A DNA stretch of 34,695 nucleotides from a virus, in IMG/VR virus record IMGVR_UViG_3300024520_000265, positions 1 through 34,695 of that record; one strand, 5' to 3'. The translations under genes were made by a program, and so were the position numbers. Of the stretch, positions 10,060 through 32,569 are shown piece by piece. Numbering within the stretch: position 1 is the first letter of the stretch; every line of letters begins with the position of its first letter. Under the pieces are notes generated by a model. The model worked only from the letters and a program-made list of their open reading frames with translations. It was not told where the DNA came from and ran no database searches.

Positions 10060-10325
10060 TAGAGTTTAAGCGTGCAAAAACAGGCGGCCTTCGTGGCCTC
10101 TCCGTCTACCGCGCCGAAATCCCCGAAGGCGGCGTGATCTACATGATCGAGACGGGCGGCGGCGTCGCCGCGGTCCACGTCGCCGGGCCGCCGGCCTCGC
10201 TCGAGTCGGTCGTCGCGATGAAGATCGCCGAGGCCGCCGCGGCCAACGAGACGCCGCCGCCTATCGCGGAGCCGCCGAAGAAGGCGCCGAAAAAGAAGGC
10301 GCCGAAAAAGAAGGCGTCGAAGTGA
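10056..10325 (+). CDS. Small protein with Lys/Ala/Pro histone-like tail
   Basis: An 89-aa protein. Residues 1-55 are a small beta-rich domain (SVYRAEIPEGGVIYMIETGG), followed by a short helix and a very basic tail of KKAPKKKA repeats (about 74-89). The tail resembles histone H1 or HU-type extensions and suggests nucleic-acid binding; the globular part is not recognised. It is coupled by ATGA to the nuclease fusion and by GTGA to the transglycosylase-like gene. Confidence 0.7.
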   Translation: MIEFKRAKTGGLRGLSVYRAEIPEGGVIYMIETGGGVAAVHVAGPPASLESVVAMKIAEAAAANETPPPIAEPPKKAPKKKAPKKKASK

Positions 10326-10930
10326 GGCGCCCGCGCGCGCTTTGCGCGATCGCGGCGGCGTTGGGAGCGCTGGTCGGGCTGTTGATCTCGGAGGCGGCGC
10401 ACGCCGATCCCGCGATCAACAGCTGTCCGAACCGTTACGCCCGCGACGTACCGCGCGACGTGATCGCCGCGCTATGGCGGATCGACCGCGAGATCCTACC
10501 GCCGACCGCGCGCGGCCTGGTACTAGCGGCCGCCTGTAACGAGTCGGGTTACCGCGCCGCCGGCAAATGCGGCGACGGTGGCCGCTCTTGCGGGATGTTC
10601 CAATTTATGCGTTGGACGATCCCGGCGTTGCGCCGCTTGGGCGCCAAGGGGCCAGATCCCCGGCTCGATTGGCGCGCGGCCGCGCGGTTTTATGCGGCGC
10701 ACGTCGCGCGGCAAGCGCCGCGCGTGCGTCGGTATTGCCGCGGCCGCCGCGGATACGCCACCCGCGCCGCTATGGTTTGGGCATCGGCGGTCCAAACGGC
10801 GACACGGGCGCCCAAGTGCGCCGCGCGCAACGTGGCCGGGCGTTGTATCCGGCGCGTCCCGCGTTGCGCCCGTCGCGGATCCCGCTTCGAAACGCTCCAC
10901 TGGCAACGGTTGCGGGCCTGGCGGAAATGA
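10322..10930 (+). CDS. Secreted lytic transglycosylase-like (SLT) protein
   Basis: A 202-aa protein beginning with a signal peptide: basic MRRPR, a hydrophobic segment of about 15 residues, and an A-x-A site in AAHADP (about 25-30). The mature part has the lysozyme-like SLT core: LAAACNESGYRA with the probable catalytic Glu, then GGRSCGMFQFMRWT (the Gly-x-Phe-Gln motif), and an AARFYAAH helix. Such enzymes cleave peptidoglycan glycan strands. About ten Cys in the mature part suggest disulfides and an extracytoplasmic site. The start is GTG at 10322, in a GTGA overlap. Its place inside the replication operon, far from the lysis cassette, is odd. Confidence 0.68.
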   Translation: MRRPRALCAIAAALGALVGLLISEAAHADPAINSCPNRYARDVPRDVIAALWRIDREILPPTARGLVLAAACNESGYRAAGKCGDGGRSCGMFQFMRWTIPALRRLGAKGPDPRLDWRAAARFYAAHVARQAPRVRRYCRGRRGYATRAAMVWASAVQTATRAPKCAARNVAGRCIRRVPRCARRGSRFETLHWQRLRAWRK

Positions 10931-15513: not shown

Positions 15514-15794
15514 ACCTCGCAACCCGTTAGGCGCGCCGCCTCCTCTTCGACGGTTTCGGCGTAGTCCGGCGCGACGCGCTCGGCAATGTCGCGGAGCGCC
15601 CGGCGGATCTTGCGGGCGCCCGCCTCGGTGAACGGGATCGACTCGACCGCCGCCGATAACGGCTCGAGACGGTTGGCGAAATCCTTACACGCGGATCGCT
15701 TCAGACCCTCGGCCGGGCGACAAAAACGCGCCGGGCGCCCTTGCTTTCCGGCGGTACAACGGATCGGACGGTCGCAAACTGCGCAAGTCGGCAT
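15510..15794 (-). CDS. Small Cys-rich (zinc-finger-like) protein
   Basis: A 94-aa protein starting MPTCAVCDRPI. The Cys pattern C-x2-C, then ARFC and RSACKDF, resembles a small treble-clef or zinc-finger found before a basic helix. The C-terminal half is helical and charged. Its function is unknown; it precedes the DNA polymerase gene with a 4-nt overlap, so it is likely coexpressed with it. The start is set by an AAGGGCTTGCC leader shared with the gene at 17058. The longer frame upstream is divergent intergenic and foreign-frame sequence. Confidence 0.65.
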   Translation of the reverse strand: MPTCAVCDRPIRCTAGKQGRPARFCRPAEGLKRSACKDFANRLEPLSAAVESIPFTEAGARKIRRALRDIAERVAPDYAETVEEEAARLTGCEV

Positions 15795-15811
15795 GATGGC
15801 AAGCCCTTGTC
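15792..15811 (-). promoter_or_regulatory. Conserved translational leader, copy A
   Basis: On the minus strand, GACAAGGGCTTGCCATCATG places a Shine-Dalgarno AAGG about 11 nt before the start codon. It is identical to copy B (17295-17314) except at two positions, and shares CTTGCC with copy C. Confidence 0.6.
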
Positions 15812-15902
15812 TGGCGCCTTTCGGCGCGGTTATGGTGAGACGTTCCCACGTAGAACGGCGCGCGTCAAACGTTTCGCGCGTGAATTTTCGAGAGGTACGA
15901 CA
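15812..15902. promoter_or_regulatory. Divergent intergenic region with inverted repeat
   Basis: This is the spacer between the polymerase operon (minus) and the DUF2190 gene (plus). It includes an inverted repeat CGTTC-N7-GAACG at 15841-15857, possibly an operator. A minus-strand TTGACG at about 15870 is a possible -35. AGAGGT before ATG 15903 is the plus-strand ribosome site. I find no strong -10 element. Confidence 0.4.
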
Positions 15903-16685
15903 ATGGCGGATCCTGTATACGTTAGCGGCCGAAAGCTCCGCCTGATAGCGCCGGCAAGCGGCGCCGTTGTCGGCGTCCCTTTGGTGATCGGCGACTATCT
16001 CGGCCTCCCAGCCAACACCGCCGCGGCCGGTGAGCCGGTCGACGTCGCGCTCGACGGCGTTTGGGTGGTCCCCAAGGCGGCGATCGCGTTCGGCCAGGGC
16101 GCGTCGGTCTATTGGGATGACGCGGCCAACCAAGCGGCGGCCGCGGGTCGTTTTATGGGGACCTGCGCCGTGCCGGGCGGATCCGTCGCGGGCGACGCAA
16201 CGACACACGTCCGCGTCGACGCGCGCGCACACTCGCCCAGCGGCCGTATCGATTCCCGCGGGATTCAGACGGCCACGATCAACAACGACGCGACCGAACA
16301 AACGCTCTACGCGCTAACGATCCCGGCGAACCGCCTCAAATTCGGGGATCTCGTCATGCTCCGATCGTCCAACGAGGTGACCGCGTTGCTGTCCGGGGAG
16401 CTCCGGCAACGTGTCTGGCTCGGACCGGTCGGCGGCGACCTATTGATCAACGGGTTTTTCGCGCGCACCTCGGTTGGCCGAAGCGGTTTCGAGTACACGT
16501 GGTTTTTGGTGGTCGACGACGGGACCGGCCCAACGAGCGCGCGCCTCGTGTCGGCGGATTTCGGCGGGATCAACGCGGTTTGCGACCTCACGATCGACAA
16601 CACCGTGAACTTTACTGGCCAAATGACCGTCGCCGATCCGGGCAACGCTTACCGCGGCCTCGGCGCTTTCCTCGGGACGATCTAG
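15903..16685 (+). CDS. DUF2190-like capsid decoration protein with extra C-terminal domain
   Basis: A 260-aa protein. Residues 1-105 resemble the DUF2190 family of head cement/decoration proteins: SGRKLRLIAPASGAVVGVPLVIGDYLGL, VALDGVWVVPKA, and GQGASVYWDDAANQ. Residues 115-260 form a second beta-rich domain (TLYALTIPANRLKFGDLVML, WLGPVGGDLLINGFF, TWFLVVDDG) that may be a jelly-roll exposed on the virion. I could not identify the second domain. The start follows AGAGGT. It stands alone on the plus strand between two minus-strand groups, not next to other head genes. Confidence 0.65.
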   Translation: MADPVYVSGRKLRLIAPASGAVVGVPLVIGDYLGLPANTAAAGEPVDVALDGVWVVPKAAIAFGQGASVYWDDAANQAAAAGRFMGTCAVPGGSVAGDATTHVRVDARAHSPSGRIDSRGIQTATINNDATEQTLYALTIPANRLKFGDLVMLRSSNEVTALLSGELRQRVWLGPVGGDLLINGFFARTSVGRSGFEYTWFLVVDDGTGPTSARLVSADFGGINAVCDLTIDNTVNFTGQMTVADPGNAYRGLGAFLGTI

Positions 16686-19446: not shown

Positions 19447-20145
19447 GTGACAACGACTAGGACGATCGACGTTGATTTCGACATCGACCGCTTTCGGCGC
19501 GAAGCGAGCTCGATCATGCGGCGCCAAGTACCGTTCGCCACCGCACAAGCGATCAACGACACGATCGCCGAAGCGCGGACAACCCTGATCGAGGCGTTAC
19601 CGGGCCATTTCACGATCCGCCGTCCGCATGCCGCCCGGGGTTTTTTGCGGGAATTCGCGCGCAAAAGGGATCGGCCGATCCAAGGGGCCGTCGGAACGAC
19701 GCGCGATTACATGGTGACGCAAATCGAGGGCGGCAAACGGACACCGGACGAGGGGAGGACCGTCGGGATCCCGGTTGCGGCGCGACGGAGCCCGCGCAGT
19801 GTGATCACGCCGGCCCGCTTCCCCGGCGCATTCCTGGCCAAGCCGGGCGCGTTTGTCGGCGGCACCAAACGCGACGCACGCGGGCGCCTGGTGCCGAAGG
19901 GCGGCACCGAGGCGCTATTCGTCCCGATCGGGCGACGCCGCCGCAAGGCCGGCAAAAAACGACGCCGCAAGAAACGCCCGACCAAAGCGTCGCGGCGCCG
20001 CTTGCGGATCATGTATTATCTACGCCCGTCAGTGGACGTCCCGGCGCGCTTCCCGTTTTTCGAGATCTCCGAGGGCGTCTTCTCGCGGGAATGGGCGATC
20101 CATATGCGGCGAGCATGGGATCACGCCTTACGAACGGCCCGTTAG
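19447..20145 (+). CDS. Putative virion morphogenesis (minor tail/neck) protein
   Basis: A 232-aa basic protein resembling phage structural proteins that begin with a conserved helix of the form RQVPFATAQAINDTIAEART and continue with FTIRRPHAARGFLREFARKRD. It also has a beta-rich middle (SVITPARFPGAFLAKPGAFVGG), a Lys/Arg cluster (GRRRRKAGKKRRRKKRP, about 165-180) and a C-terminus around YYLRPSVDVPARFPFF. I remember this layout from minor tail or neck proteins, but no specific role can be given. The GTG at 19447 follows a GGAGG. It is isolated on the plus strand between lysis and late operons. The dense Arg/Lys run is a possible nucleic-acid contact. Confidence 0.6.
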   Translation: MTTTRTIDVDFDIDRFRREASSIMRRQVPFATAQAINDTIAEARTTLIEALPGHFTIRRPHAARGFLREFARKRDRPIQGAVGTTRDYMVTQIEGGKRTPDEGRTVGIPVAARRSPRSVITPARFPGAFLAKPGAFVGGTKRDARGRLVPKGGTEALFVPIGRRRRKAGKKRRRKKRPTKASRRRLRIMYYLRPSVDVPARFPFFEISEGVFSREWAIHMRRAWDHALRTAR

Positions 20146-20329: not shown

Positions 20330-20452
20330 TCACAGCACACCAAGCAGCGATTGTTGCCTATGGAATGCGGCGATGGCTGCATCACGCGATATGTCGTAAC
20401 CCAGCACGCTGAAGGTGGACGGCTCGAGGATGGCGACGAGATAGGCTTTCAT
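20330..20452 (-). CDS. Small ORF coupled to DpdA (40 aa)
   Basis: A 40-codon ORF beginning MKAYLVAILEPSTFSVLG opens at ATG 20452, overlapping the DpdA stop as ATGA, the usual coupling in this genome. It ends at 20330. The product has a short hydrophobic N-terminus and no recognisable domain. It shares the lack of GATC and ordinary codon use of the QueC-DpdA cassette. It could be a real small partner or a chance frame. Confidence 0.4.
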   Translation of the reverse strand: MKAYLVAILEPSTFSVLGYDISRDAAIAAFHRQQSLLGVL

Positions 20453-21066
20453 GTGAAGAGGTCCAGTTGCGGGTGGTTAAGGCCCAGTTCGAACGTGGCT
20501 AGGTTGTCAGCGCTCCATAGCGGCAGGCATGAGTCTATGGAGTCAGCACCGATGCGCTTTGCCCACATGACTCGCCTGCGCGTGCCGACCCTTCCCAGAT
20601 GGCATCGCAAACCATGCACATGCGCGTGCCTTACCCACTGGGCCCCGGTCGCTATCTTCCACTTCAGCGAGCCGCCCACGAAAACGTGCGAGAAGCGCCC
20701 AAGATGCGGGGCAATGTCGCCAGGTTGCATGCCATCTTGGACGACCAGCGCCAACGGCAGGCCCAGCGGTTCCAGCACATCAGCCCAAGCGAGCGACAAG
20801 CGCAAGGAGTCGAGGCCGCCCGCAACGATATCTGGCACGACCAAGAAGTCGGGACGGCTGTCGGAGCTCGCAGCGGTCAGCGCCACCCGGACAAAGCGCC
20901 CAGCATTAAAGGGGCGACGGTTCTTCCAGTCGGCAAAGGCGCCATTGTCCAGCGCCCATGGAGTGCGGCGGGGCGGATACTCCCAAGGCTGCGTCATCTC
21001 ACCATGCCCCCGCTCTGTGAGCTGGGCGATGAGTTTCCGCGACCGCGTTTGGCCGACGTATGCCAT
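20449..21066 (-). CDS. dpdA: DpdA-like DNA 7-deazaguanine transglycosylase
   Basis: A 205-aa TGT-like enzyme. Recognisable DpdA-type segments are WALDNGAFADW (D40), FLVVPDIVAGGLDSL (D79), LALVVQDGM (D111), FVGGSLKWK, CHLGRVGTRRR (about 155-165) and GADSIDSC (D178). DpdA enzymes are relatives of tRNA-guanine transglycosylase that exchange guanine in DNA for a 7-deazaguanine such as preQ0. It is short compared with tRNA TGTs (about 370 aa), as small phage DpdA proteins are. The start is ATG 21066, overlapping the QueC stop by one base (TGATG); a longer frame to 21138 lies inside QueC. The QueC neighbour supports this over a tRNA role. The product base (preQ0 or other) is not determined. Confidence 0.8.
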   Translation of the reverse strand: MAYVGQTRSRKLIAQLTERGHGEMTQPWEYPPRRTPWALDNGAFADWKNRRPFNAGRFVRVALTAASSDSRPDFLVVPDIVAGGLDSLRLSLAWADVLEPLGLPLALVVQDGMQPGDIAPHLGRFSHVFVGGSLKWKIATGAQWVRHAHVHGLRCHLGRVGTRRRVMWAKRIGADSIDSCLPLWSADNLATFELGLNHPQLDLFT

Positions 21067-21617
21067 CAGTACGCCCGGCAACTGTTGCAGGTCTTGCACT
21101 TGCGGCCGTCGGCTGTTGGTGTGTAGCAGGACCAGCACAAAGCAACGGGTACGCCCAGCGAGTGGGCCTCGTGCAGGATGTGGGCCTTTCTTGAGTCGAG
21201 AAGGGGCGCCTTCACAGTGACCCCGCAGCCCATTTGCGTAGCGGTGTTGGCGCGATGCATGAAGCCAGGCCTGCAGTCTGGATAGTCCTGCGAGTCGTCA
21301 TGGTGTGCGCCTATCCAGACTTCATCAGCGCCAACCGCCGACGCGTAGTTTGCGGCGATGGAGAGGAGAGCGAGGTTTCGGCCCGGCACAACGCGGGGGC
21401 CTTCTTCGCCCTCAGGCGCTGACATATCGCCGAGCCGGAGCGAGACAATTGCAAACTCAAGCCCGCAACCCCGGGCCATGGCCAGCGCCCGCGCTGCGCC
21501 GCTCTCTTGCAGGGCTGCAGGCTGGCCGTAGTTGATGAAGAGGCCAACGGGGGCGCTGGCTCGCCATAGCATGACAGCGGAGTCGAGCCCGCCCGATAGC
21601 AGAACGAGTTGGCTCAT
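21066..21617 (-). CDS. queC: QueC-like 7-cyano-7-deazaguanine (preQ0) synthase
   Basis: A 183-aa protein with the PP-loop ATPase motif LLSGGLDS (S8-D12-S13), a conserved middle (FINYGQPA, VPGRNLALLSIAANYA, EVWIGAHHDDSQDYPDCRPGF, VKAPLLDSRKAHI) and a C-terminal zinc site, SCY...KCKTCNSC (C164, C174, C177, C180). QueC converts carboxy-deazaguanine with ammonia and ATP to preQ0, precursor of queuosine and of phage DNA deazaguanines. It is shorter than bacterial QueC (about 220-230 aa). No FolE, QueD or QueE gene is visible; these may come from the host or elsewhere in the genome. ATG 21617 follows a GGGAG site. It lies 51 bp after the tail fibre gene and has no GATC site. Confidence 0.88.
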   Translation of the reverse strand: MSQLVLLSGGLDSAVMLWRASAPVGLFINYGQPAALQESGAARALAMARGCGLEFAIVSLRLGDMSAPEGEEGPRVVPGRNLALLSIAANYASAVGADEVWIGAHHDDSQDYPDCRPGFMHRANTATQMGCGVTVKAPLLDSRKAHILHEAHSLGVPVALCWSCYTPTADGRKCKTCNSCRAY

Positions 21618-21668: not shown

Positions 21669-23147
21669 TTAGGCTTCAAACCCTGGGATCCAATAGTCGG
21701 TGGCGCCGTCCGATACGCGGAACCACCGGAGGGCCGCCGTGCCCGTCGGTGTGTTCGCCAACGCCGCCGCGCCGCCGGCCGATAGCGTCGACGTGTCGGT
21801 AAGCGTCATTTTGTCGAACGTCCCGCGCCCCGTGGAGCTGTCCAGCTGCCACGTTAACGCCGCGCCGCTAGCGCCTGCGATCGTGTTATCGGCCGCAAGC
21901 GTAGGCCCGGCGCCGCTAGTCGTCGAGCACACGATCGCCGAGGCGGATCCACTGACGATCGCGCCGCCGGTACGCACGCCGAGAACTAGCGCTTGATCCC
22001 CGGTGATTTGCGTCGGCGTCGCGGTGTCGTTGGCGGAGGCCGCGATCACCGCGTGCGTCCCTGAGCTGATACGCATTTCTCCGGACGACGCCACGATCGC
22101 GGCAAGGCCGGCTGTACCCTGGATCTCCGGCCGCCGCGAGCCCAACGACAACCCGCACGCCACGATCGCCGAGATCTGAGCGTCGCCGGCGATTACGCCG
22201 CCGTTGCTGGCGGCGATCATTGCCGCGTAGGCCGTCGTGATAATCGTTGGCCGACCGACGGCGGCCGTATCTCGGCCGCTCGCGATGATCGCCGAGTTTT
22301 CGCCGGTGGAGATCTCGACGTTCGCCGCCGCGGCGACTAGCGAGCCGCCGACCGTCGGACCGATCAACGTCCGCCGCGTGGAGCTCCCGGCCGCGGCGAT
22401 GATCGCGCTTGTCCCGCCCTCGTTGTCGACGTCGTCGCCGTCTATTGTCGTGCCGGCCGCGGCGATGATCGCCGCACGGTTGCCGTCGAGCTCGACATTT
22501 AGAGACCCCGCGATCACCGACGAAAACGCGTTCGAGTTTTTACCGAGATCGGCGCCGTCACTGGCCAGAACCAGCGACCCCTGGGCGTTAGCCCCGATCT
22601 CAGATCCGCTCGTCGAAGCCATGACTCCGCTGTTAGTAGCGCCCGCGTCGATCACGCCGGCCGTCCCGCTGAGCGCTAGACCGACGCAACGATCACCGCG
22701 GAGCGATCCGCCGTCACTCGCCGCCAGGATCGACGACGTGCCATCGACCAGGCCGCCGCCCGCCGCAACGACCACAGAACCCGCAGAAAACGGCCCGACT
22801 TGCGGACCTCCGCCGCCGGCGTCCCATACGCACAACAGCCCATTAGGCAACGCGACGGCAGCCGGACCGACCGAGGCGTTGATCGGGCCAGCGGCCGCGA
22901 ACCCTACACCGCCGAAGATCAACGAGTTAATCGCCAGCGCCATTTGCGCGTTGTCCGCCTTGTTCAACGTCAGCCCGGCGGCGACGATCACGCCGGCGAT
23001 CTCTTCCTGGACCGAGTTGGCCCAATCGCTAGTTAAAACGGTGGCTTGTGCCTTGGTCGCCGCTTTCGCGAAAAAACCCACGGTCGGGCCAACGGGCGAC
23101 GCCGCCGGGAACACTGCGACCGCGTTAGTACTGTCGATTCGATGCAC
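21669..23147 (-). CDS. Tail fibre protein with repetitive beta-structure
   Basis: A 492-aa protein beginning MHRIDSTNAVAVFPAASP and with VLTSDWANSVQEEIAGVI...NKADNAQMALAINSL, the N-terminus usual in Mu-like tail fibre proteins that attach to the baseplate. The middle (about 90-430) is a low-complexity series of repeats around AIIAAAG/SAIIASG, consistent with a beta-helix or pectate-lyase-like shaft. The C-terminus (RWFRVSDGATDYWIPGFEA) may be a trimerisation tip or receptor-binding end. Start GTG at 23147 follows GAGAGGGG. It follows gp48, as in Mu. No chaperone gene of the Mu U type follows; QueC is next. Confidence 0.78.
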   Translation of the reverse strand: MHRIDSTNAVAVFPAASPVGPTVGFFAKAATKAQATVLTSDWANSVQEEIAGVIVAAGLTLNKADNAQMALAINSLIFGGVGFAAAGPINASVGPAAVALPNGLLCVWDAGGGGPQVGPFSAGSVVVAAGGGLVDGTSSILAASDGGSLRGDRCVGLALSGTAGVIDAGATNSGVMASTSGSEIGANAQGSLVLASDGADLGKNSNAFSSVIAGSLNVELDGNRAAIIAAAGTTIDGDDVDNEGGTSAIIAAAGSSTRRTLIGPTVGGSLVAAAANVEISTGENSAIIASGRDTAAVGRPTIITTAYAAMIAASNGGVIAGDAQISAIVACGLSLGSRRPEIQGTAGLAAIVASSGEMRISSGTHAVIAASANDTATPTQITGDQALVLGVRTGGAIVSGSASAIVCSTTSGAGPTLAADNTIAGASGAALTWQLDSSTGRGTFDKMTLTDTSTLSAGGAAALANTPTGTAALRWFRVSDGATDYWIPGFEA

Positions 23148-23159
23148 GTCGATCCCCTC

Positions 23160-23744
23160 TCATGTAGGTAGCGAAACCTCGTTCGCTCTGAGCCCGTCGA
23201 TCGCTTGCACGACGGAATAACTAGGCGCGATCCGCTCGAGTAGGCAAAGCAAGCCGTCCCAACCCGGCGGCGGCGTCGTCAAGCGCCAGACGTACCAATA
23301 AAACGACCATTCCTCGTCGTACAATCGTTCGTCGGCCGTCGACACGTCGGGCATAAATAGCGCCGTTTGCTGGTACTCGATCCCGTCGTATCCGGCCGCC
23401 GTCGCGATCTCTAGTAGGAGCGCCAATTGTGTACCGCCGCGCGCGATAAACCGCGCAAAAGCGGCCGCCTGGCGGTCCGTGACCGTTGTCGGCGGCGATG
23501 GGTTGCACGGATCCGGCAACCCTAACACGCGCTCCCAACCGCCCAACATATCTATAGCGGTCCGGGGATCGCTCTCGGCAATGAGATCGACGAGCCGCGC
23601 GTGTATCCGCGACAATTCGGCCGCCAACCCGTCGAGCGTTAGTGATAGGCCGGAGGCCGGATCGGTGACGGCCCAGGCGCGCCCGCGCGGCAACAACCGC
23701 GCCAACATATCGGCGTAATCCGCCGCCGATAGCGGATCAAACAT
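23160..23744 (-). CDS. Mu gp48/YmfQ-like baseplate protein (DUF2313)
   Basis: A 194-aa protein with the YmfQ/DUF2313 pattern: DYADMLARLLPRGRAW (about 9-24), LDGLAAELSRIHARLVDLIAESDP (about 37-60), a DMLGGWERVLGLPDPC segment (about 64-79) and a conserved C-terminal beta segment (GYDGIEYQQ, then WYVWRLTTPP). This is the baseplate component after gp47 in Mu-type tails. The start overlaps gp47's stop. Confidence 0.85.
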   Translation of the reverse strand: MFDPLSAADYADMLARLLPRGRAWAVTDPASGLSLTLDGLAAELSRIHARLVDLIAESDPRTAIDMLGGWERVLGLPDPCNPSPPTTVTDRQAAAFARFIARGGTQLALLLEIATAAGYDGIEYQQTALFMPDVSTADERLYDEEWSFYWYVWRLTTPPPGWDGLLCLLERIAPSYSVVQAIDGLRANEVSLPT

Positions 23745-24894
23745 AGACGACGGTCCCCAATACAGGGAACGAATCGGCGCCGATCGCGACGTCGGCCGGC
23801 GGCGCCCCGTCGATCTCGGTCAGCACGTGCGACACCTCGCCGGGCGCCGCGTCGATCGCGCCTATGATTTGGGACACTTTGAGAGATCCGCCGGGTTGTC
23901 CGCGCTGCAAAAACAGCGCCTTGACGCTGCCTTCGACGGACGCGCGGATCGCCGGTGTGTCGGGTGTAAGATCTGTGATCTCGAGATCGACCGGCTGTCC
24001 GGCCAACAAACGGACGTCGATCCGTCCGTCGGGTTGCGCGTCCGGCCCGGTGATCGGCTTCGAGATCGGCACTGGCGCCGCGGCGTCTTCGAAATTGTTG
24101 GCCAGCGTGCCGGCGATATAGTCTAGCGCCGTTTGGACCTGTCCGGGCGACGGCAGCGCGTTGGCCGGATCTCCGTCGCCTGGCTCCACCAAAAAACGCA
24201 CCGTCACGGCGCCGATAAACGGCTCTCCGCCGCTAACGTAGACGCTCCGCACGTTGGCGACGGCCTCCCGCGTCCATTGGCGGAAATCTGCGTCGCTCCC
24301 GCCTTGCGGCGGATCCGCCATCCGAGCCAACACGCGTTGTCGTAGCGCCTCGAGACTCTCGACGTCGACGCCGCCGGTAATACCGCCGACCGCGACGACG
24401 GCGTCGGAATCAATCCCGGCCAGCGGAACCGACAGCACCAGCGGTGAGCCCGCGACGGCGTCGCCTATTGTGCCAGGCTCGACCGCCTCGACGATCACGA
24501 CACCGACACCGGCCGCGATGGTCGCGCCGGTCGTCACGACGTACTCGATCCCGTCATTTCGAACGAGGCCGTCGCCGGCCGCGATGGTCGACCCGTCGAC
24601 GCCGGAGACGTCCACCGATCCCACCGATCGCGCCGGCGTTACGTCCGCCAGGCCGAACATCGCTTGCCAACGGGCCACGCCCGCCGCGCTGGCGCAATCC
24701 GGGAGCGTCTCCCGGGCTACCTCTCCGCCGAACGCGTAGACGAGCCAGGCGGCCCCACTAACCCCCAACGACAACGCGTTGAGCGCCGTCCGGCGTAACT
24801 GAGAATCGGCGCCGGGGATCGCGCTGTCGATGTCGGCTTGAACGCGATCAACGATCGCGTTCAATGTCGGGATCGTAAATCCGGTGTCAGCCAT
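23737..24894 (-). CDS. Baseplate protein J-like (Mu gp47)
   Basis: A 385-aa baseplate wedge protein of the Baseplate_J family (Mu gp47, P2 gpJ). Visible signatures are TIPTLNAIVDRVQADIDSAIPG at the N-terminus, ESLEALRQRVLARMADPPQGGSDADFRQWTREA in the middle (about 179-211), and a VKALFLQRGQPGGSLKVSQIIGAI C-terminal part. It links the tube-end hub to the fibres. The start overlaps gp46 by 8 nt and gp48 begins inside its end. Confidence 0.9.
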   Translation of the reverse strand: MADTGFTIPTLNAIVDRVQADIDSAIPGADSQLRRTALNALSLGVSGAAWLVYAFGGEVARETLPDCASAAGVARWQAMFGLADVTPARSVGSVDVSGVDGSTIAAGDGLVRNDGIEYVVTTGATIAAGVGVVIVEAVEPGTIGDAVAGSPLVLSVPLAGIDSDAVVAVGGITGGVDVESLEALRQRVLARMADPPQGGSDADFRQWTREAVANVRSVYVSGGEPFIGAVTVRFLVEPGDGDPANALPSPGQVQTALDYIAGTLANNFEDAAAPVPISKPITGPDAQPDGRIDVRLLAGQPVDLEITDLTPDTPAIRASVEGSVKALFLQRGQPGGSLKVSQIIGAIDAAPGEVSHVLTEIDGAPPADVAIGADSFPVLGTVVYV

Positions 24895-25429
24895 AGGTTA
24901 GCGCGCTCCATAGATCATCGAACCGCAAAATAACAGGATCCGCGGTCCGATCCCGAACGAGTACGATCTCGGCCGCGATCCCGTCGGGGCGCCCTTCCGG
25001 CGTCGTCGTTCGCGTCGTCGTCACCTCGAACGACGTGACAACACCATCGGCCAACAGCCACGCCAGCGCCTCACGGATATACCCGTCGGCGATCTCCGGC
25101 GTCGCGACCGTCACCGCGTCGAGGCGCCTAGCCTCGCCGCTCGCCAGCTTCGCGCGATCCAACAACCACAGACGAGATCCCCACTGATCGCCCTCGTTGC
25201 GCGGATAACTGTCGCCCCACCAACCGCGGCGATCGGTCTCATCGGTCGGGAGCTCGTATGTTTCGACGCGGCGATCGGTGTACAACGACAACAAAACAAC
25301 GGCTAACAGGCCGTCGGAGCTATCTCCCGACCATTCGGCGCCGGGCGGAAACACCGACGCGCCGGCGGCATAACCGCCGAAAAACTCGAACGAGCGGATC
25401 CGGCTCGGTGGCGTTAACGGCGTCGACAT
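24887..25429 (-). CDS. Mu gp46-like baseplate protein
   Basis: A 180-aa protein of the GP46 family, with LLAVVLLSLYTDRRVETYELPTDETDRRGWWGDSYP near the N-terminus (about 41-76) and EIADGYIREALAWLLADGVVTSFEVTTTR in the middle (about 112-140). It resembles T4 gp25-type wedge proteins. AGGATC seven bases before ATG gives the start. Twelve GATC sites lie in its 543 bp. Confidence 0.88.
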   Translation of the reverse strand: MSTPLTPPSRIRSFEFFGGYAAGASVFPPGAEWSGDSSDGLLAVVLLSLYTDRRVETYELPTDETDRRGWWGDSYPRNEGDQWGSRLWLLDRAKLASGEARRLDAVTVATPEIADGYIREALAWLLADGVVTSFEVTTTRTTTPEGRPDGIAAEIVLVRDRTADPVILRFDDLWSALTYG

Positions 25430-25444
25430 GGGCGGATCCTATCG

Positions 25445-26050
25445 CTAATCGACCGCAACAACAACGCCGGAGCCCGCCGAGATCGCGCCGGCGGCCGTCG
25501 TCGGCGCGGTCGGTACGGTCACCGGAGCGCCGGCGCTCAACGCCGTGATCGCCGCAACGACGGCCGCGAAAAACGCGAACAGAGCCGGATCGGTGCTCCC
25601 GTCGAGTGTGACCGGATCGGTAACCCGCGCGACGCCTAACACCGCGCCCGTACCGAGCCGGATTTGTGGGCCGTCGATCTCGACACCATCGCGGCGTAGC
25701 GCGACGAAATGTCCGTCAACATCCCACAGCGCGACGTCTCCGGCGCTAGGCAATTTCGGGCGAGCGTCGCGCTTGGCCGTCGCGATGATGATCTGGTGAT
25801 CCCCGGACGCGCCGATCCGAATCAACACCGCCTCCGATCCCAACGGCGGCGACGAGCTCAGGCCGTATTGCTGGAACAATTCGACGCGATCTTGGACCTC
25901 GCCGCTCAACACGTCGATCTGAACCTCGCCTTGTTTTGGCGCGTCGGAATACCGGCGCACAACGGCGCGGCGGATCGCGTTGTTTAGCCGCTGGTGTAGC
26001 GGGCGCAAACCCCTGGAAACGGCCTCCTCAGAGTCGGTATAGAGCGTCAT
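25445..26050 (-). CDS. Mu gp45-like baseplate spike protein
   Basis: About 201 aa from the ATG at 26050, which overlaps the P gene stop as ATGA (frame open to 26065). It has the Phage_Mu_Gp45 plan: an N-terminal helix (LRPLHQRLNNAIRRAVVRR), OB-fold beta strands (VQIDVLSGEVQDRVELFQQYGLSSSPPLGSEAVLI), and RRDGVEIDGPQIRLGTGAV followed by a repetitive Ala/Thr/Val C-terminus forming the spike. It punctures the outer membrane in Mu-type tails. The C-terminal tip here lacks a clear metal-binding H-x-H motif. Confidence 0.86.
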   Translation of the reverse strand: MTLYTDSEEAVSRGLRPLHQRLNNAIRRAVVRRYSDAPKQGEVQIDVLSGEVQDRVELFQQYGLSSSPPLGSEAVLIRIGASGDHQIIIATAKRDARPKLPSAGDVALWDVDGHFVALRRDGVEIDGPQIRLGTGAVLGVARVTDPVTLDGSTDPALFAFFAAVVAAITALSAGAPVTVPTAPTTAAGAISAGSGVVVAVD

Positions 26051-27141
26051 CCGATCGGCCTCCAAGCGCCGATCCCGCGGCGCGGGTTGTCGGGGAGCGC
26101 GGTATAATATCCCGTCTCCGGCGCCAGCGTTAGATCTGCGACCTGCTCTTGGTTGGACAGCGACAACGCCACGTTGAGCAACAACAAATCCGAATCGACA
26201 CGAAGGAAGGGATCGATCAATCGGATCAACGTCCCGGGCTCGTATAGTTGATCCTGATCGTCATACCACCCGCGGACCCGCACATTGATCAACGTCGAGC
26301 GTCCCCAGCGTTGCGCCGCCTCCCATTGCGCGCGGGCCAGCGCGCGGCGTCTGTTAGCGCCGCTATCGGTAGACAGCACCAACACACGCGGGCGGCCGCC
26401 GAACGCCGCCGCGTCGGACGCTAACGCCTCGATCCCCGTGACCGCGGCGCCGAAATCTTGATCGTCGCCAGACGTCTGGCTCTTTATGCGGTACTCGTTA
26501 AAAACCTTGGACAAATCAAACGATCCCTGAGCGCTCAATATGTTTCGGCCGCGCTCGAGCTCGGTGCCAATCGCCAACGGGAACGATCCGGGAGCGCCAA
26601 GGCGCAACACCAACGCGCCCGCGGCGTCGTCGTAGATCAACAACGACCGCAACCGCGCGGCCCGCTCGATAGCCTCGAAAACGGTTTCGCCGGCCTCGGC
26701 GACAAACCGCGCGACGGGCTCCCCGGTGTCCATCCCAGGCGGGAGATCTACCCGTACGGCGACGCCATACGGCGCGCACAACTTCGCGGCGATTTGTTCG
26801 ATCCGTAGATCGTTGAACCTCCGCGGACCTATCACTGAGCAGTCCACGATCTGGCCCGTGCTACTCCGGCCCGAAACGCCGATCGACGCGGTGTTGGCTT
26901 CGTAACTAGGCGCGATCGCGTCGACGTAGCCCGTAACGACGGGCGTCCCGTCGATCTGTAGATCGAACGCGTCGCCCGGATGGAAATTGACCGGCGACGC
27001 GCCCGGCGGCGCGCCGGTCTGCGTCGCAGTGAACACAAACGAGCGGGCCGCCGTCTCGATACCGTACGATATATTAACGTCGGTCCAATCGCGATACGTT
27101 GCGCCGTCGACGCGTAGCGATACGACACCGGGCGGACTCAT
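26047..27141 (-). CDS. Baseplate hub protein P (Mu gp44 / late control D-like)
   Basis: A 364-aa hub protein of the Mu P type, similar in fold to T4 gp27 and P2 gpD. It begins with VSLRVDGATYRDWTDVNISYGIETAARSF, then FHPGDAFDLQIDGTPVVTGYVDAI (about 53-76), and a central FVAEAGETVFEAIERAARLRSLLIYDDAAGALVLRLG section. It forms the central ring between tube and spike. Overlaps of 4 nt with N and gp45 show translational coupling. Confidence 0.88.
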   Translation of the reverse strand: MSPPGVVSLRVDGATYRDWTDVNISYGIETAARSFVFTATQTGAPPGASPVNFHPGDAFDLQIDGTPVVTGYVDAIAPSYEANTASIGVSGRSSTGQIVDCSVIGPRRFNDLRIEQIAAKLCAPYGVAVRVDLPPGMDTGEPVARFVAEAGETVFEAIERAARLRSLLIYDDAAGALVLRLGAPGSFPLAIGTELERGRNILSAQGSFDLSKVFNEYRIKSQTSGDDQDFGAAVTGIEALASDAAAFGGRPRVLVLSTDSGANRRRALARAQWEAAQRWGRSTLINVRVRGWYDDQDQLYEPGTLIRLIDPFLRVDSDLLLLNVALSLSNQEQVADLTLAPETGYYTALPDNPRRGIGAWRPIG

Positions 27142-28322
27142 TCGGTTAACACCGTGTATTGACCCGGCGCCACAAATCCGCCGTGGACAATCCCGTTGCG
27201 CGTCATGATCTCCGAGGCGCGGCCGGCGTCGCCGTATAGCGTCCAGGCCAGCTGTAACGCGGTCGTCGTCGTCCTAACCTCGACCGTCCGCAAACGCGCC
27301 AGCGACGACGCCTTGTTCGTTAGATCGGCGGCCGTCGCGGTCCGCGTATCTACCAGCGCCTCATATTCGGCCAGCGTGACAACCAACCCCTCGTCGAGTC
27401 GGATCCGATCGTCTATCAGATCACGCAACGCGATCGCGTCGTCATACACACCGAACGAGGCCGCGATGGCCTGGCCTGCTAACTCGACCAGCGCCACCCG
27501 TTGGACGAGGTCAACCAACGCGTCGGCGTTGATCGCTATCTGCGCCTCACTGGGATCGCTCGGCGGTGTGACGTCGAACGTTAACGACGCCGGCCGGTTT
27601 GCCGTGAGCGCGCGCAACGCGCCGAGATCTCCAATAGACACGATCACCGCGACGAGATCCGCCGCGAGATCCGCCGGCGCCTGGATCAGCGCAAGAGCGT
27701 CCGTCTCGATCGCGTCCAACCCGTTACCGACCGCGTCGACGTCAGAGATCGCGCCGGCGATCGGGCTCACTAGCGCCGACCGGATCGCGGCCACCCGCCC
27801 CGACAAATCGACCAGCGCCCGATCCGACACCGTCCCCGGTTGTTGCTGCACACCGAAGCGCTCGACAAAGTGCGCGGCGGCCGCCTTTTTTGTCGCCGCC
27901 GAGGCCGTCGCGACAGCGTCGTCGGCGCCCACAAAAATTGTCAAACCCGTGAGACCGGGATCTTCAACGAACGACAGCGTGAACGACGCCAGCCCTTGAT
28001 CTGCAAGCGTCTCGGTCTCGGTGTACGATCGGCACAACGCGCGGATCGATCCCCACCGGGGATGGACGAGCTCGCCCACGCCGGCCTCGAGCGCGGTGAT
28101 TAGTTGTTGGGCCTGATCGTGATAGTCGGATCCAATCACGAACGCCTCGAGCTCGAAGCGGTTAATCGTCCGGCCTAGATCCTGGGGACTAGGGAGATCC
28201 CGTTGTGGATACTCGTGATCCGCGCCGCGCTTGCCGCCGGTCCGACTATGGCCGCGCACGCGGAACGGGACGCCTCGAAAACTGGCGGGCAACAAATCGA
28301 GCAACCACGATGGATCGGCCAT
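27138..28322 (-). CDS. Mu N-like DNA circularisation / tail protein
   Basis: A 394-aa protein with the DNA_circ_N (Mu gpN) N-terminal region: LLPASFRGVPFRVRGHSRTGGKRGADHEYPQRD (about 10-42), LGRTINRFELEAFVIGSDY and a LVHPRWGSIRALCRSY stretch. In Mu this virion protein belongs to the tail/baseplate and was linked to circular genome protection after injection; it also resembles the T4 gp48/54 and P2-like hub group. The long C-terminal Ala/Asp-rich region is helical. It starts at TAATG overlap with the tape measure. Confidence 0.85.
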   Translation of the reverse strand: MADPSWLLDLLPASFRGVPFRVRGHSRTGGKRGADHEYPQRDLPSPQDLGRTINRFELEAFVIGSDYHDQAQQLITALEAGVGELVHPRWGSIRALCRSYTETETLADQGLASFTLSFVEDPGLTGLTIFVGADDAVATASAATKKAAAAHFVERFGVQQQPGTVSDRALVDLSGRVAAIRSALVSPIAGAISDVDAVGNGLDAIETDALALIQAPADLAADLVAVIVSIGDLGALRALTANRPASLTFDVTPPSDPSEAQIAINADALVDLVQRVALVELAGQAIAASFGVYDDAIALRDLIDDRIRLDEGLVVTLAEYEALVDTRTATAADLTNKASSLARLRTVEVRTTTTALQLAWTLYGDAGRASEIMTRNGIVHGGFVAPGQYTVLTE

Positions 28323-30208
28323 TAACCCGCCCCCGCCTTACGTTTGCCCACCGGCGCCGTCTTGATCGGAACCGCCGGGTTAACAGCCTTCGCCTTGGTC
28401 TCCGTCTTTGTCAGCTCCCCGGGCCCCTTGATCGTGATCTCGTGCTTCGACTCGATCACGCCACCTACCGCGCCGGCGGTTAGTCCGCCTAGCTTAGCCG
28501 TAGCCGGAGATCTGGCCGCTTGCCGGCCTACGTCGTGGCGCGCCTTGCGCTTTTCCGCCTCGGCCATCAGCGTCAGCGGATCCATTAGCGAAAACGCCCT
28601 CGATCCGGCCATCTCACGCATGCCTGAAACCGATCGCTCCACGGCGCGTTGCCGTCCGCCGAACATGCCCGGAGCGATCCCGGCCAACACGTCCATGCCG
28701 AGCCCCTCCGATTGACCGCTCTCGCTTATGTCTTCGACTTGTAAGCGTTTCTCGACTTTCTGCACGCCTTCGTCGGCCCAAAAGTCTTGGATCGCCGATC
28801 CCCATTTGCTTATCAGGTTGATCCCGTTCGCGATCGCCGTCGCGACCTTGCCCAGCGCGGACACAACGTTCCCCATCGCGGTGCCCGCGTCCGTCGCGAA
28901 TTGTTGCCAGTTGATCTTCTCGAGCTTCTGCCCGCCTGTCAGCGCCTCGGCAAACCCGGTTGCAAACCCTTTAGCCCCCTTGCGAATATCTGCCCCGGCG
29001 TTGCGAACCCGATCGGGGATCGAATCCATTTTGTCGAGCCCCAAACCCTCAGCGATGCCTCCGCCTAGCTCGGTGACCAACAACGAAAACCCCGTCTTCA
29101 TTTGTTGGATCCGAAAACCCGTGCGCTTTTCCAGGTTTTCGAAATTTTGATCGGCCTCGTTCGTGGTGTTCTTAAGCGCTCCAAGTGCCTTTTCCATGTC
29201 ACCGAATCCGCCCTTAGCGATACGCGTGACTCCCGCGATAGCCTCGGCGCGCCCGAACATCTTTACGATGGCACCAGGGTCGCGCCTGGCAACGTCGCCG
29301 ATCTTCTCCATCAAACCGACAAGGCCTCCGGCCTGTTTAACCGCCTCGGGCCCGATCGGGATCTTGAACTTCTTAAGCGCTTTACGCGCGCTTGTAGTCG
29401 GTTTGACGATCCCCGAAATCACCGCGCGTAGTTGTGTGAACGCCGCGTTAGTTGTTACCCCTTCTTTGGTGATGCTGGTCATCGGGGCCAAGATCTCTTC
29501 GAAACTCAGCCCCATGGATTTCGCGAACCCGGCAACCTGGCCCATGCTAGAAGCGATCTGCCCGAAATCCGTCTTGCCGAGCGCCTCGGCCACAAAAAGC
29601 TTGTTGGCGGCTTGCGCCGCCGTTAGGCCTTCTTTCCCGAACACGTTGAGCGCCGACGTTAGCGCGTCCACGACGATCGCGGGCTCCGCAAAACCCGCCT
29701 TTGCAGCCTTCAGCGCTACCGGTAGGAATGTCTCGAGCTCTTTTTTGGTCGTACCAACGCCGCCACTAAACGCCATATACGCGGCGCGCGCCGTCTCGAT
29801 CGGATCCGTCGCGAACTGGATCGACATATCCCGCAACGTCCGCTCGTATTCCCTAACGGGATCGACACCATCCCCGATCACATTCCCGAGGCGCGCGACC
29901 TCGAGCTCGAATTTTCCGAACCGATCGACCGCCAGCGCAGCGATACCTGCCGTCGCGCCGGTCGCTTTCGCAAGCGTCCCCATGGTGTCCACGGTCCGAC
30001 GGCCGGCGCGGCCGGTAGCCTCGAACGACCGGCCCAACGCGACGCCGCCGCGCATCAGTCCCCGGCGAGCGCGTAACCCCATACGCTCAATCCGACTAAA
30101 CGATCGACCCGCTTGCCGCTCGGCCCGCTTGAGCGCCACCGACCACGGGCGCGATAGTTGATCCTCACCGCGTAGAATCGCGCGCAAAAGCAGCGATTTC
30201 TTAGCCAT
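28322..30208 (-). CDS. Tail tape measure protein (TP901-type)
   Basis: A 628-aa tape measure. The N-terminal 350 residues have the conserved TP901 core: FGKFELEVARLGNVIGDG, TARAAYMAFSGGVGTTKKELE, and ALGKTDFGQIASSMGQVAGFAKSMGLSFEEILAPMTSITKEGVTTNAAFTQLRAVISGIVKP. A mixed helical and Gly/Ala-rich C-terminus follows. At about 0.15 nm per residue, a tail of roughly 94 nm would be expected. GGAGG seven bases upstream supports ATG 30208. It follows the chaperone pair. Confidence 0.92.
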   Translation of the reverse strand: MAKKSLLLRAILRGEDQLSRPWSVALKRAERQAGRSFSRIERMGLRARRGLMRGGVALGRSFEATGRAGRRTVDTMGTLAKATGATAGIAALAVDRFGKFELEVARLGNVIGDGVDPVREYERTLRDMSIQFATDPIETARAAYMAFSGGVGTTKKELETFLPVALKAAKAGFAEPAIVVDALTSALNVFGKEGLTAAQAANKLFVAEALGKTDFGQIASSMGQVAGFAKSMGLSFEEILAPMTSITKEGVTTNAAFTQLRAVISGIVKPTTSARKALKKFKIPIGPEAVKQAGGLVGLMEKIGDVARRDPGAIVKMFGRAEAIAGVTRIAKGGFGDMEKALGALKNTTNEADQNFENLEKRTGFRIQQMKTGFSLLVTELGGGIAEGLGLDKMDSIPDRVRNAGADIRKGAKGFATGFAEALTGGQKLEKINWQQFATDAGTAMGNVVSALGKVATAIANGINLISKWGSAIQDFWADEGVQKVEKRLQVEDISESGQSEGLGMDVLAGIAPGMFGGRQRAVERSVSGMREMAGSRAFSLMDPLTLMAEAEKRKARHDVGRQAARSPATAKLGGLTAGAVGGVIESKHEITIKGPGELTKTETKAKAVNPAVPIKTAPVGKRKAGAG

Positions 30209-30211
30209 GGA

Positions 30212-30654
30212 TCAGACCTCCGATCGCGACAACCCCAGCAACCGGGGCGCGTGATCTATGATTGCGACCGCCCGACGATACCACCGATCCAAGCCCAACG
30301 CATCGATCGCGGCGCAATCGGCCAAACCGAGGCCGAACACGCGCGCGATGAGCGTCAGTCTCCACTCCCAGTCACCGGGCCACGCGCCAAAAAACGGTTT
30401 AGCGCGTCCTCGCATTTCGCGTAATCCCAGGCGTCCAGCGTACGCAACGACGGGACCGGGATCTTCGTCAACCGGTGGATCAGAAATAGCGATCCCTTGA
30501 CCCCGGTGTGTCCGAGATCTTGCAACCATTCGAGATCCCCCGCCGTTGGGCGTTGGAGGAACTCGACGGCGCTAATAGACTCCCCCCAGGCGTTGATCGG
30601 GACGTCTAGCGAGACGGCCGCGATCGGCTCGTCGTGGTGTTCGGGTCGTGCCAT
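30212..30654 (-). CDS. Tail assembly chaperone long form (G-T fusion by -1 frameshift)
   Basis: Translation starts at 30654 and shifts -1 at the slippery heptamer 30388-30394, giving about 147 aa. The first 89 codons come from the upstream frame and the last 58 from the frame ending at 30212. The product after the shift continues as FFGAWPGDWEWRLTLIARVFGLGL and ends at DHAPRLLGLSRSEV. Lambda G/GT, P2 E/E' and Mu-like phages use the same arrangement to make a minority fusion that helps tape measure and tube assembly. The second frame has no good ribosome binding site of its own. Confidence 0.82.
30355..30654 (-). CDS. Tail assembly chaperone short form (G-like, Mu gp41 position)
   Basis: A 99-aa protein, the unshifted product of the chaperone pair, ending at 30355. 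It starts MARPEHHDEPIAAVSLDVPINAWGE and has ISAVEFLQRPTAGDLEWLQDLG, typical of the Mu-like tail assembly protein between tube and tape measure. AGGATC seven bases upstream of ATG is the ribosome site. Confidence 0.82.
   Translation of the reverse strand: MARPEHHDEPIAAVSLDVPINAWGESISAVEFLQRPTAGDLEWLQDLGHTGVKGSLFLIHRLTKIPVPSLRTLDAWDYAKCEDALNRFLARGPVTGSGD
30388..30394 (-). promoter_or_regulatory. Programmed -1 frameshift slippery site TTTTTTG
   Basis: On the minus strand the reading CGT TTT TTG in the G frame gives the canonical X XXY YYZ heptamer T TTT TTG. After the slip, the tRNAs re-pair with TTT TTT and reading continues GGC GCG TGG. GCGCG just after the site can pair with CGCGC about 36 nt downstream, a possible stimulatory structure. 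Confidence 0.8.
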
Positions 30655-30690
30655 TGACCGATCCTATTCAGTGTGTGTGTGTGCCGTCCG

Positions 30691-31056
30691 CTAAACCGCT
30701 ATGACGCGGCCGCGCGGACCTTCGAGACGTAGCGTAAAAGTACCCTCGGCCGCGTCGGGCTCAATCATCCCAACCTGGACGGCTTCATAAAGCACGACCT
30801 GCTTGCCGTTATACATGTCGAGCTGCGCGGTGCCGACGGCCGCACCCTGCAACGACTCGAGATCGATCCCGGGGCCGTCGAACACGGCGACCTCGATAAA
30901 CGGTTGAGAAGGCTCACGTTTATGGCCCGCCGGGCCGGTAAGGCCCTGGACACTCGTCCGGACGAATCGTTGCGTCGAAAACGACGCAGATCCTTCCAGT
31001 GTGAACGCTTGTCCGTTGAAGATAAACGACAAAACACCGCCGCGACTATCGGACAT
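30691..31056 (-). CDS. Tail tube protein (Mu gpM-like)
   Basis: A 121-aa protein of the Mu-type Phage_tail_tube family: GVLSFIFNGQAFTLEGSASFSTQRFVRTSVQGLTGPAGHKREPSQPFIEVAVFDGPGIDLE, then GTAQLDMYNGKQVVLYEA and TFTLRLEGPRGRVIA. It forms the inner tube of the contractile tail. It follows the sheath gene by 10 bp, with AGGGG as ribosome site. Confidence 0.9.
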   Translation of the reverse strand: MSDSRGGVLSFIFNGQAFTLEGSASFSTQRFVRTSVQGLTGPAGHKREPSQPFIEVAVFDGPGIDLESLQGAAVGTAQLDMYNGKQVVLYEAVQVGMIEPDAAEGTFTLRLEGPRGRVIAV

Positions 31057-31066
31057 GATCTAACCC

Positions 31067-32569
31067 CTAAAGCGCGGTCGCCGGATATTGGAGGCGGAAC
31101 CGGTTTTGCACCGCGAAGACGCGTAGTTGATTGATAAGATCCGGCTCAACGAGACAGTCGACCCGGTTCGGATCGGTCGGCGACCGCTGGACGATGAGCG
31201 ACGAAGCAAAAGCGGCCTCATTTTCCACCCAGCCCAGGCCGACCATCGCCGAGTATTCGGCGATCAGAGACCCCTTTAGCAGGTTCGGGGTGACGATCGC
31301 TTGGCCCTCGGCGATCGGTGTGTCGTTGTCCGCCAATTTGTAGCGCGGATACGACGAGACGATCATGGACTCGATCCGCCGATTGAACCGCATCAGCGTG
31401 TATAGCGTGTTGGCGTCGAGGAATGCGTCGTTAGCCGCCCCGAACGCGTCCGTTTGGTACGTCGAGATCAGCCGCTCGATCCGGACGACGCCATCGGCGC
31501 CACTGTAGGTCGTCGCCACGCCGTCAAAAAGCAGGGTATTCCGCTGGCCTTGGGTGAATTTAGCGGATCGCGCCGGTGGTAGGATCCCAACGAGATCCAA
31601 CGTCTGGACCGGCCGCGCCGGATCGGTCGCCAGCGATTGGCCGGCGCGGCCCATGACGGCCCCGGTAACCTGCCAGGGAGCCGCGGCGACCGGATCGAGA
31701 CCGATCACCGTCACATGCTCATCATTGATCGACGCAATACTACCAAGCGCCGCGACGCTATCGGTTGCCGCGGTGTAGGCGTGGCCGTAGATCCTACGAT
31801 TCCAGGCCCAACGGCCGGTAGCGGCGTCCAGTAGCGCGCCGATCTCGCTCAGACTCGTTGCATCGCGATACGGGATCCCGATCGAATCGTAGAGCCCGTC
31901 ACCCAGGATGGCGGCGACGCCCGAAAGCGCCGGGTTGACGGTCCCCGGAACCGACGCGATCGCAATGTCCGTCACACCGGCCGGGAACGACTCCCCGGCC
32001 CTGTAGTTGAATCTCACGTCGCTATAGCTCGCGAACGCGCCCGCGTGCTTCGCTGTCAGAGTCACGACACCCAACGCCGCCACCGCCGTTACCGGCATGT
32101 CGTCGGCCGCGGTGATCGCTGCGGCGATTGCTGCGGCGATCACCGTCTCGGAGTCGCCGCTGGTGACGGATGCGACGACGCGCCGGCCGTCTATATACAG
32201 GTACACCGCGCCGTCGGCCGTCGCCGTCGTCACTAGCGGCGCGATCGTTAGTGTCCACGTCGCGGCCGTCGCGGCCCCGTCGTCGTCGAGCGGTAGACAC
32301 CAGAGCTCCGAAAACGCGTCGTTTCGCCGGTACGCCTCGACCATGTCGAACAATACCGAGCCCTCGCCGAACAACCCGCGCGCCTGGCCGGCGCTGTCAA
32401 CGAGTACCGGGACGCCCGCGGCCGCGGTACCTGCGGCCAGCTTGTTGCCGATGATCAACGACGGACCGACCTCCGACGACGGCGTCGCGGCCGCGGTCGG
32501 ATCGACCTCGAGGAAAAACAACGGCGTTCGCAACGTGCCGCCCGCCGGAATGCTGTTAAAAGTCACCAT
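31067..32569 (-). CDS. Contractile tail sheath protein (Mu gpL-like)
   Basis: A 500-aa sheath. The N-terminus FNSIPAGGTLRTPLFFLEVDPTAA, the segment GPSLIIGNKLAAGTAAAGVPVLVDSAGQARGLFGEGSVLFDMVEAYRRNDAFSELWCLPLDDDG, and the C-terminal VDCLVEPDLINQLRVFAVQNRFRLQYP are characteristic of Mu L. It identifies a myovirus-type contractile tail. AGG about nine bases upstream supports the ATG at 32569. Confidence 0.93.
   Translation of the reverse strand: MVTFNSIPAGGTLRTPLFFLEVDPTAAATPSSEVGPSLIIGNKLAAGTAAAGVPVLVDSAGQARGLFGEGSVLFDMVEAYRRNDAFSELWCLPLDDDGAATAATWTLTIAPLVTTATADGAVYLYIDGRRVVASVTSGDSETVIAAAIAAAITAADDMPVTAVAALGVVTLTAKHAGAFASYSDVRFNYRAGESFPAGVTDIAIASVPGTVNPALSGVAAILGDGLYDSIGIPYRDATSLSEIGALLDAATGRWAWNRRIYGHAYTAATDSVAALGSIASINDEHVTVIGLDPVAAAPWQVTGAVMGRAGQSLATDPARPVQTLDLVGILPPARSAKFTQGQRNTLLFDGVATTYSGADGVVRIERLISTYQTDAFGAANDAFLDANTLYTLMRFNRRIESMIVSSYPRYKLADNDTPIAEGQAIVTPNLLKGSLIAEYSAMVGLGWVENEAAFASSLIVQRSPTDPNRVDCLVEPDLINQLRVFAVQNRFRLQYPATAL

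Follow-up and report, generated by a model that had tools for sequence, protein, structure and literature searches.

A QueC-family gene and a small TGT/DpdA-type transglycosylase gene behind the tail fibre gene of a phage: a predicted minimal cassette for 7-deazaguanine in DNA

Described deazaguanine systems and the present locus

Modification of phage DNA by QueC together with DpdA is already known. In Enterobacteria phage 9g and phages CAjan, Saguaro and Sonali, a TGT-like transglycosylase of the DpdA1 type is encoded near QueC or Gat-QueC, and phages of this type also carry FolE, QueD and QueE. In E. coli, the Gat-QueC and DpdA of 9g are sufficient by themselves to modify plasmid DNA from the host precursor; loss of host queC leaves the modification in place, loss of queD abolishes it, and DpdA seems to receive the base by channelling (PMC6884629).

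The locus studied here likewise places a TGT-like gene beside a QueC gene. However, it has QueC only, without the Gat domain, and the transglycosylase is 205 aa long, compared with 296-363 aa for DpdA1 in the phages named above. The DSGAF/DNGAF, LDVIGD/PDIV and GG motifs of the two transglycosylases align, whereas DpdA1 carries HxG and the small family a TGT-like QDG. Some small proteins annotated as "DpdA-like" in actinophages (Phegasus gp54, Aoka gp40, Sonali gp81, ReqiPine5 gp03) belong to phrog_15826 like the window protein, with which they share 26-40% identity and the same invariant residues. The small enzymes of Phegasus, Aoka and ReqiPine5 are paired with a YhhQ/VUT transporter, and that of Sonali shares its genome with DpdA1 and the full pathway, whereas the present one accompanies QueC alone.

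A comparable two-protein logic of a QueC-like and a TGT-like protein, with folds similar to those of the window pair, is found in type IV CBASS, where Cap9 and Cap10 carry out protein deazaguanylation (PMC11996544). Cap9/Cap10 act on the N-terminus of a CD-NTase, whereas no CD-NTase was found among ten scanned window proteins; moreover, Cap10 has ~325 aa against 205 aa, and the signature of the window QueC is nearer to the canonical one than that of Cap9. In phage Mu, the DNA-modification genes com/mom lie behind the tail-fibre genes of a Mu-type tail, as the window pair does. Mom modifies adenine and is unrelated to the window enzymes, for which exchange of a guanine base is predicted.

Against this background, what appears to be new is that the small family is systematically linked to genes for preQ0 uptake or synthesis, that a predicted TGT-type active site fits within ~205 residues, and that QueC accompanies the small enzyme in a phage with a Mu/SfV-type tail.

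Gene order and phage background

The window, the whole stretch of DNA analysed, corresponds to one entire IMG/VR record (34,695 bases) that is classed as linear and is probably a fragment. The cassette and its surroundings comprise the following features.

19447..20145, plus strand: minor tail protein gene on the opposite strand, bounding the cassette (PHROG 1924)
20449..21066, minus strand: putative small TGT/DpdA-type transglycosylase, 205 aa (phrog_15826, hhalign with DpdA1, AlphaFold2 model, Foldseek, conservation)
21066..21617, minus strand: QueC-family enzyme (7-cyano-7-deazaguanine synthase), 183 aa (PF06508, motifs, AlphaFold2 model)
21669..23147, minus strand: tail fibre gene, directly upstream of queC (PHROG tail fibre families, E = 7e-12)
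23160..32569, minus strand: Mu/SfV-type contractile tail operon with baseplate wedge, hub, tape measure, tube and sheath (PHROGs, sheath relatives)

A preliminary description of this DNA had reported two adjacent genes sharing one base, and base 21066 is indeed common to the QueC stop codon and the ATG of the 205-aa gene. The motifs it quoted are present in the respective reading frames, SGGLDS and CxxCxxC in 21066-21617 (minus strand) and ALDNGAF, VPDIV and HLGRVGTRRR in the 205-aa frame. Both genes lie inside the span it gave (20330-21617), although the start at 20330 is ~120 bases past the true end of the DpdA-like gene at 20449. The gap between the fibre gene and queC is 51 bases, on the same strand. 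In the related tail operon of contig L133, no gene intervenes between the fibre gene and the same minor tail protein; the QueC and 205-aa pair therefore behaves as inserted cargo.

The closest relatives of the sheath were those of Paraburkholderia phage IPK, Bordetella PBb001/002, SfV and ST64B; the label "Mu-type tail" is therefore fair. The broader designation of a Mu-like phage applies to the tail but not to the rest of the window, which encodes a primase, helicases, two DNA methyltransferases, an exonuclease and PolA; no transposase was found in the window, which is probably a fragment. The pair had also been put forward as not known to be described in a Mu-like contractile phage. QueC-DpdA pairs as such are known in phages, but the Mu/SfV-type sheath family phrog_165 was present in none of the 50 other virus records carrying the small enzyme. 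This result also led us to reject the pair as the mark of a contractile phage lineage.

QueC had been named as the sole gene of its pathway in the record, and a genome search for FolE, QueD and QueE agreed, finding none in the window record, outside which part of the genome lies. Contig L134 represents a sibling of the window phage (94% identity over a 1.1-kb overlap at the right end); by inspection its genes resemble terminase, portal and capsid/protease, and no Que genes were found in it. Contig L136 was rejected as an extension of the window: it falls inside the left end and adds no sequence. No preQ1 riboswitches were detected by an Rfam scan of the window and seven loci.

In the window, a helicase gene is adjoined by two DNA methyltransferase genes that overlap (5501-7077), and the phage may have a second layer of DNA modification from them. 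The plus strand carries a head-decoration-like gene (PHROG 122, E = 9e-16) at 15741-16685, well away from the tail operon.

The QueC-family enzyme and the 205-residue protein

The window QueC matched PF06508 over residues 4-181 (E = 4.5e-38, above the Pfam cut-off) and the QueC-like PHROG 1550 (E = 4e-42), while its score for the NCBIfam equivalog TIGR00364 was under the cut-off (106.4 bits vs 150.3). Its motifs are SGGLDS, YGQPAALQE, VPGRN, YPDC, a K and SCY(x)9CxxCxxC; besides the SGGLDS PP-loop, the zinc site reads SCYTPTADGRKCKTCNSC, the spacing being slightly off the published x8. Relative to E. coli QueC, the PP-loop, VPGRN, YPDC, the conserved Lys, the zinc Cys set and the Tyr after the first Cys are kept. 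Residues Y35, R99, Y131 and Y189 of the E. coli enzyme are reported to be essential for preQ0 formation (PMC13329287), and all four positions are aligned in the window QueC (YGQ.., VPGRN, YPDC and SCY).

The His of YxQxHxxE is absent, the sequence YGQPAALQE giving YxQ(x)5E spacing. Because of this replacement, we claim QueC-like chemistry only and not canonical QueC membership outright. The same spacing is common to Cap9, several partner QueCs and the QueC that HCTV-1, a tailed virus, encodes within a QueC/QueD/QueE/FolE cluster. A pattern search in IMG/VR found no close QueC relatives. The AlphaFold2 model of the window QueC had a pLDDT of 90.

Because both folds match, the most serious rival explanation is a Cap9/Cap10-like action, in which the QueC-like enzyme would attach 7-carboxy-7-deazaguanine (CDG) to the N-terminus of a protein, and its TGT-like partner would bind or process the product, for example as an anti-CBASS measure. 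Cap9 was the best single-sequence PDB match of the window QueC (6e-13), and Foldseek placed Cap9 (1.3e-12) about level with QueC (3.8e-12). The length of 183 aa and the YxQ(x)5E spacing are also as in Cap9, and the 205-aa model matched Cap10. However, the profile of partner QueCs preferred QueC over Cap9 in the PDB (2e-43 vs 6e-29), the window protein has the canonical Tyr following its first zinc Cys and a VPxRN motif, in contrast to the Glu and LVGRN of Cap9, and the shared spacing also occurs in the HCTV-1 QueC within its synthesis cluster. The CD-NTase search (PADLOC, ten window proteins) was negative, and the small family is tied to transporter and synthesis genes, as detailed below. We consider a Cap9/Cap10-like action unlikely and favour QueC-like supply of a base.

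The 205-aa protein falls into phrog_15826 (PHROG 15826, "unknown function", E = 1e-34), with 21 relatives in phage GenBank records, 290 in IMG/VR, 80 of which were fetched, and 33 in prokaryote genomes. None of the single-sequence and profile searches with it in PDB, Pfam, NCBIfam and PADLOC was of use; informative results came only from structure, from comparison of profile with profile and from gene neighbourhoods. The AlphaFold2 model, built with 80 homologues, is a TIM barrel (pLDDT 95, pTM 0.91). Foldseek against the PDB returned ribulose-phosphate epimerases first and then, at similar E-values, TGTs; the matches included TGT 4gd0 (4.5e-05), Cap10 9ntn (7.5e-05), the DNA preQ0 insertase DpdA 7ui4 (3.7e-04) and archaeosine TGT. 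The named entries among the best matches to viral models in BFVD were phage queuine tRNA-ribosyltransferases.

Since TGT could not be told from other barrels by fold alone, the active-site residues matter. In E. coli TGT these are, in order, the acid/base Asp D89 (DSGGFQ), the base-recognition Asp D143 (FDEC), the Gln Q187 (IIQG), the Gly-Gly G213-214 and the nucleophile Asp D264 (MGVGKPEDL...IDMFDCVMP). The 205-aa protein has D40 (LDNGAF), D79 (VPDIV), Q110 (VVQDG), G131-132 and D178 (LGRVGTRRR...ADSIDSCLP) in the same order, a correspondence of motif order and not of superposed coordinates. Across 81 sequences, D79, Q110, G131, G132 and D178 were invariant and D40 was present in 80. The preliminary description had made its assignment depend on the fold and on a catalytic Asp; the predicted structure is a barrel with TGT, DpdA and Cap10 as Foldseek neighbours, and D40 and the invariant D178 are the equivalents of D89 and D264.

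Comparison of profiles by hhalign related the small family to DpdA1 over residues 28-132 (probability 95.7%, E = 1e-8), the C-terminal half remaining unaligned, while 23 unrelated window proteins used as negative controls all stayed below 1%. Similarity to DpdA2, for which KVP40.0122 served as a stand-in, had a probability of 0.5%. The 205-aa protein was not filed as DpdA1, which has HxG and DSSSW motifs and ~300 aa, because it has QDG and DSIDSC instead and is only 205 aa long. Judged by its sequence, the small family is a distant relative of phage DpdA1, ~100 residues shorter and devoid of the TGT-type zinc domain. The earlier term "DpdA-like" thus holds in the sense of profile homology to DpdA1 and TGT-type sites, but the protein belongs to a small, distant ~205-aa family and not to the DpdA1 or DpdA2 type. 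The family may be identical to DpdA3 or DpdA4, as it is set apart here from DpdA1 and the DpdA2 stand-in only; its identity with the DpdA2/DpdA4 candidates of KVP40 and HCTV-1 was rejected by profile comparison.

The 205-aa protein ends 27 residues past D178 and has no CxC..C motif, and no TGT-type C-terminal Cys-rich zinc/tRNA-binding extension was found in its sequence. A role in tRNA is less likely for this reason. Under such a role, the small enzyme would be a tRNA transglycosylase, and the cassette would modify tRNA or lift the host queuosine pool for translation. It would be in keeping with the TGT fold and with the presence of every one of the five TGT active-site positions, the QxG glutamine among them, and Hutinet et al. 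propose tRNA-Q boosting for phages that have the pathway but lack DpdA. Yet the profile similarity is to the DNA-acting DpdA1, and among the carriers of the small family are mycobacteriophages, the host of which reportedly has no Q genes at all. Action on tRNA is accordingly rated as quite improbable, and DNA is retained as the predicted substrate.

Arthrobacter phage Sonali (L007) encodes the small enzyme at 5965-6582 as well as full DpdA1 with QueC/QueD/QueE/FolE at 8952-12378; since both transglycosylases are present in one genome, they may have different targets or bases. Locus L087 (9620-17071) encodes a protein of 2484 aa, possibly polyvalent in view of a weak ART-PolyVal match, with the small DpdA domain close to its N-terminus.

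Supply genes of the small family and proposed function

Of 98 dereplicated loci, 48 had a 7-deazaguanine supply gene no more than 2.5 kb from the small gene: YhhQ/VUT in 32, QueC in 12, QueF in 9, QueD in 7, QueE in 3 and FolE in 2. At a distance of 5-10 kb in the same loci, the control counts were 0 for VUT, QueC, QueD, QueE and QueF and 1 for FolE (449 kb of near and 550 kb of far sequence scanned), which gives near:far ratios of 31:0 for VUT, 12:0 for QueC and 7:0 for QueD. Because four of these neighbours served as seeds for the VUT profile, the near/far contrast and not the raw VUT count is the test. Among 25 transporters checked, PF02592 was found in all and TIGR00697 ("queuosine precursor transporter") in 24. 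E. coli YhhQ has been implicated in preQ0 transport (PMC5372724).

The side of the small gene taken by QueC varies between loci, and the tree of the family needs a minimum of 7 changes in the pairing with QueC and of 12 in that with VUT. Locus L060 (FolE, QueD, QueE, QueC) is nested within members paired with a transporter; synthesis and uptake therefore swap, as expected if both feed one enzyme. Among the window enzyme and its closest relatives (L013, L014, L015, L017, L097), QueC was present in the window only.

This linkage also bears on the reading that the 205-aa protein is some other TIM-barrel enzyme that merely neighbours Que genes. Such a reading would fit the epimerases among the top Foldseek matches, with their similar E-values, and the half of the family that has no supply gene nearby. 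The ordered TGT residues, the specific DpdA1 profile match with clean controls, the queuine TGTs among the named best BFVD matches and the near:far linkage (VUT 31:0, QueC 12:0) speak against it, and we regard it as very improbable.

The pair is probably a minimal, late-expressed cassette that puts 7-deazaguanine into phage DNA as a defence against restriction. Host FolE, QueD and QueE would supply CDG, presumably the input because these genes are absent from the record. With ATP and ammonia, the phage QueC would convert CDG to 7-amido-7-deazaguanine (ADG) and/or preQ0. The 205-aa enzyme, a putative minimal TGT barrel with D178 as nucleophile and D40 as general acid/base, would then swap selected guanines of the replicated phage DNA for this base before packaging, and the modified DNA would be protected from restriction. 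Late expression is suggested by the location downstream of the fibre gene and would agree with an exchange of bases once replication has taken place. Several observations weigh against this reading: the small protein is ~100 residues shorter than DpdA1 and its C-terminal half is unaligned, QueC is confined to the window among the closest relatives, the window QueC is as near to Cap9 as to QueC and lacks the His, and half of the family has no nearby supply gene. The 7-deazaguanine modification put forward in the preliminary description is largely supported by the TGT-type fold and sites and by the family's linkage to preQ0 synthesis and uptake genes, whereas we infer the DNA substrate, the inserted base, the host supply of CDG, the late expression and the anti-restriction role.

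More broadly, it seems an evenly balanced proposition that the ~205-aa family forms a distinct class of minimal, zinc-free DNA transglycosylases, spread over hundreds of phages and served by exchangeable supply modules. These modules would be import of preQ0 (YhhQ/VUT), synthesis by FolE/QueD/QueE/QueC, or, as in the window, QueC alone finishing host CDG. The proposal provides phrog_15826, a family common in phages and catalogued without a function, with a role that can be tested. It also offers an answer to a question raised in the literature, namely the source of the base for phages with a lone DpdA-type enzyme in hosts reported to be without the preQ0 pathway, such as mycobacteria; in the Fishburnevirus member examined, the small enzyme is encoded directly behind a preQ0-type transporter gene annotated as "hypothetical". 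QueC with the small transglycosylase is a compact two-gene candidate tool for placing 7-deazaguanine in DNA.

Several individual loci deserve mention. A close relative of the window enzyme is encoded in a Thermovibrio (Aquificota) assembly (L097, 9995-10645), where no Que gene was found near it. PF02592 VUT/YhhQ transporters lie directly upstream of the small gene in L002 (5367-5921), L009 (4041-4565), L010 (4261-4791) and L090 (8976-9593); they are annotated as hypothetical or membrane proteins (Phegasus, Aoka, ReqiPine5 and one IMG/VR phage). In L090 (9590-9907) and L009 (4565-4891), a QueF-like gene (~106-109 aa, PF14489) is placed between the transporter and the small gene, which suggests the use of preQ1 or a derivative. 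A gene for a PAPS-reductase-like N-type ATP pyrophosphatase is situated near the small gene in four loci (L001, 9460-10503; L010, 5505-6422; L036; L068).
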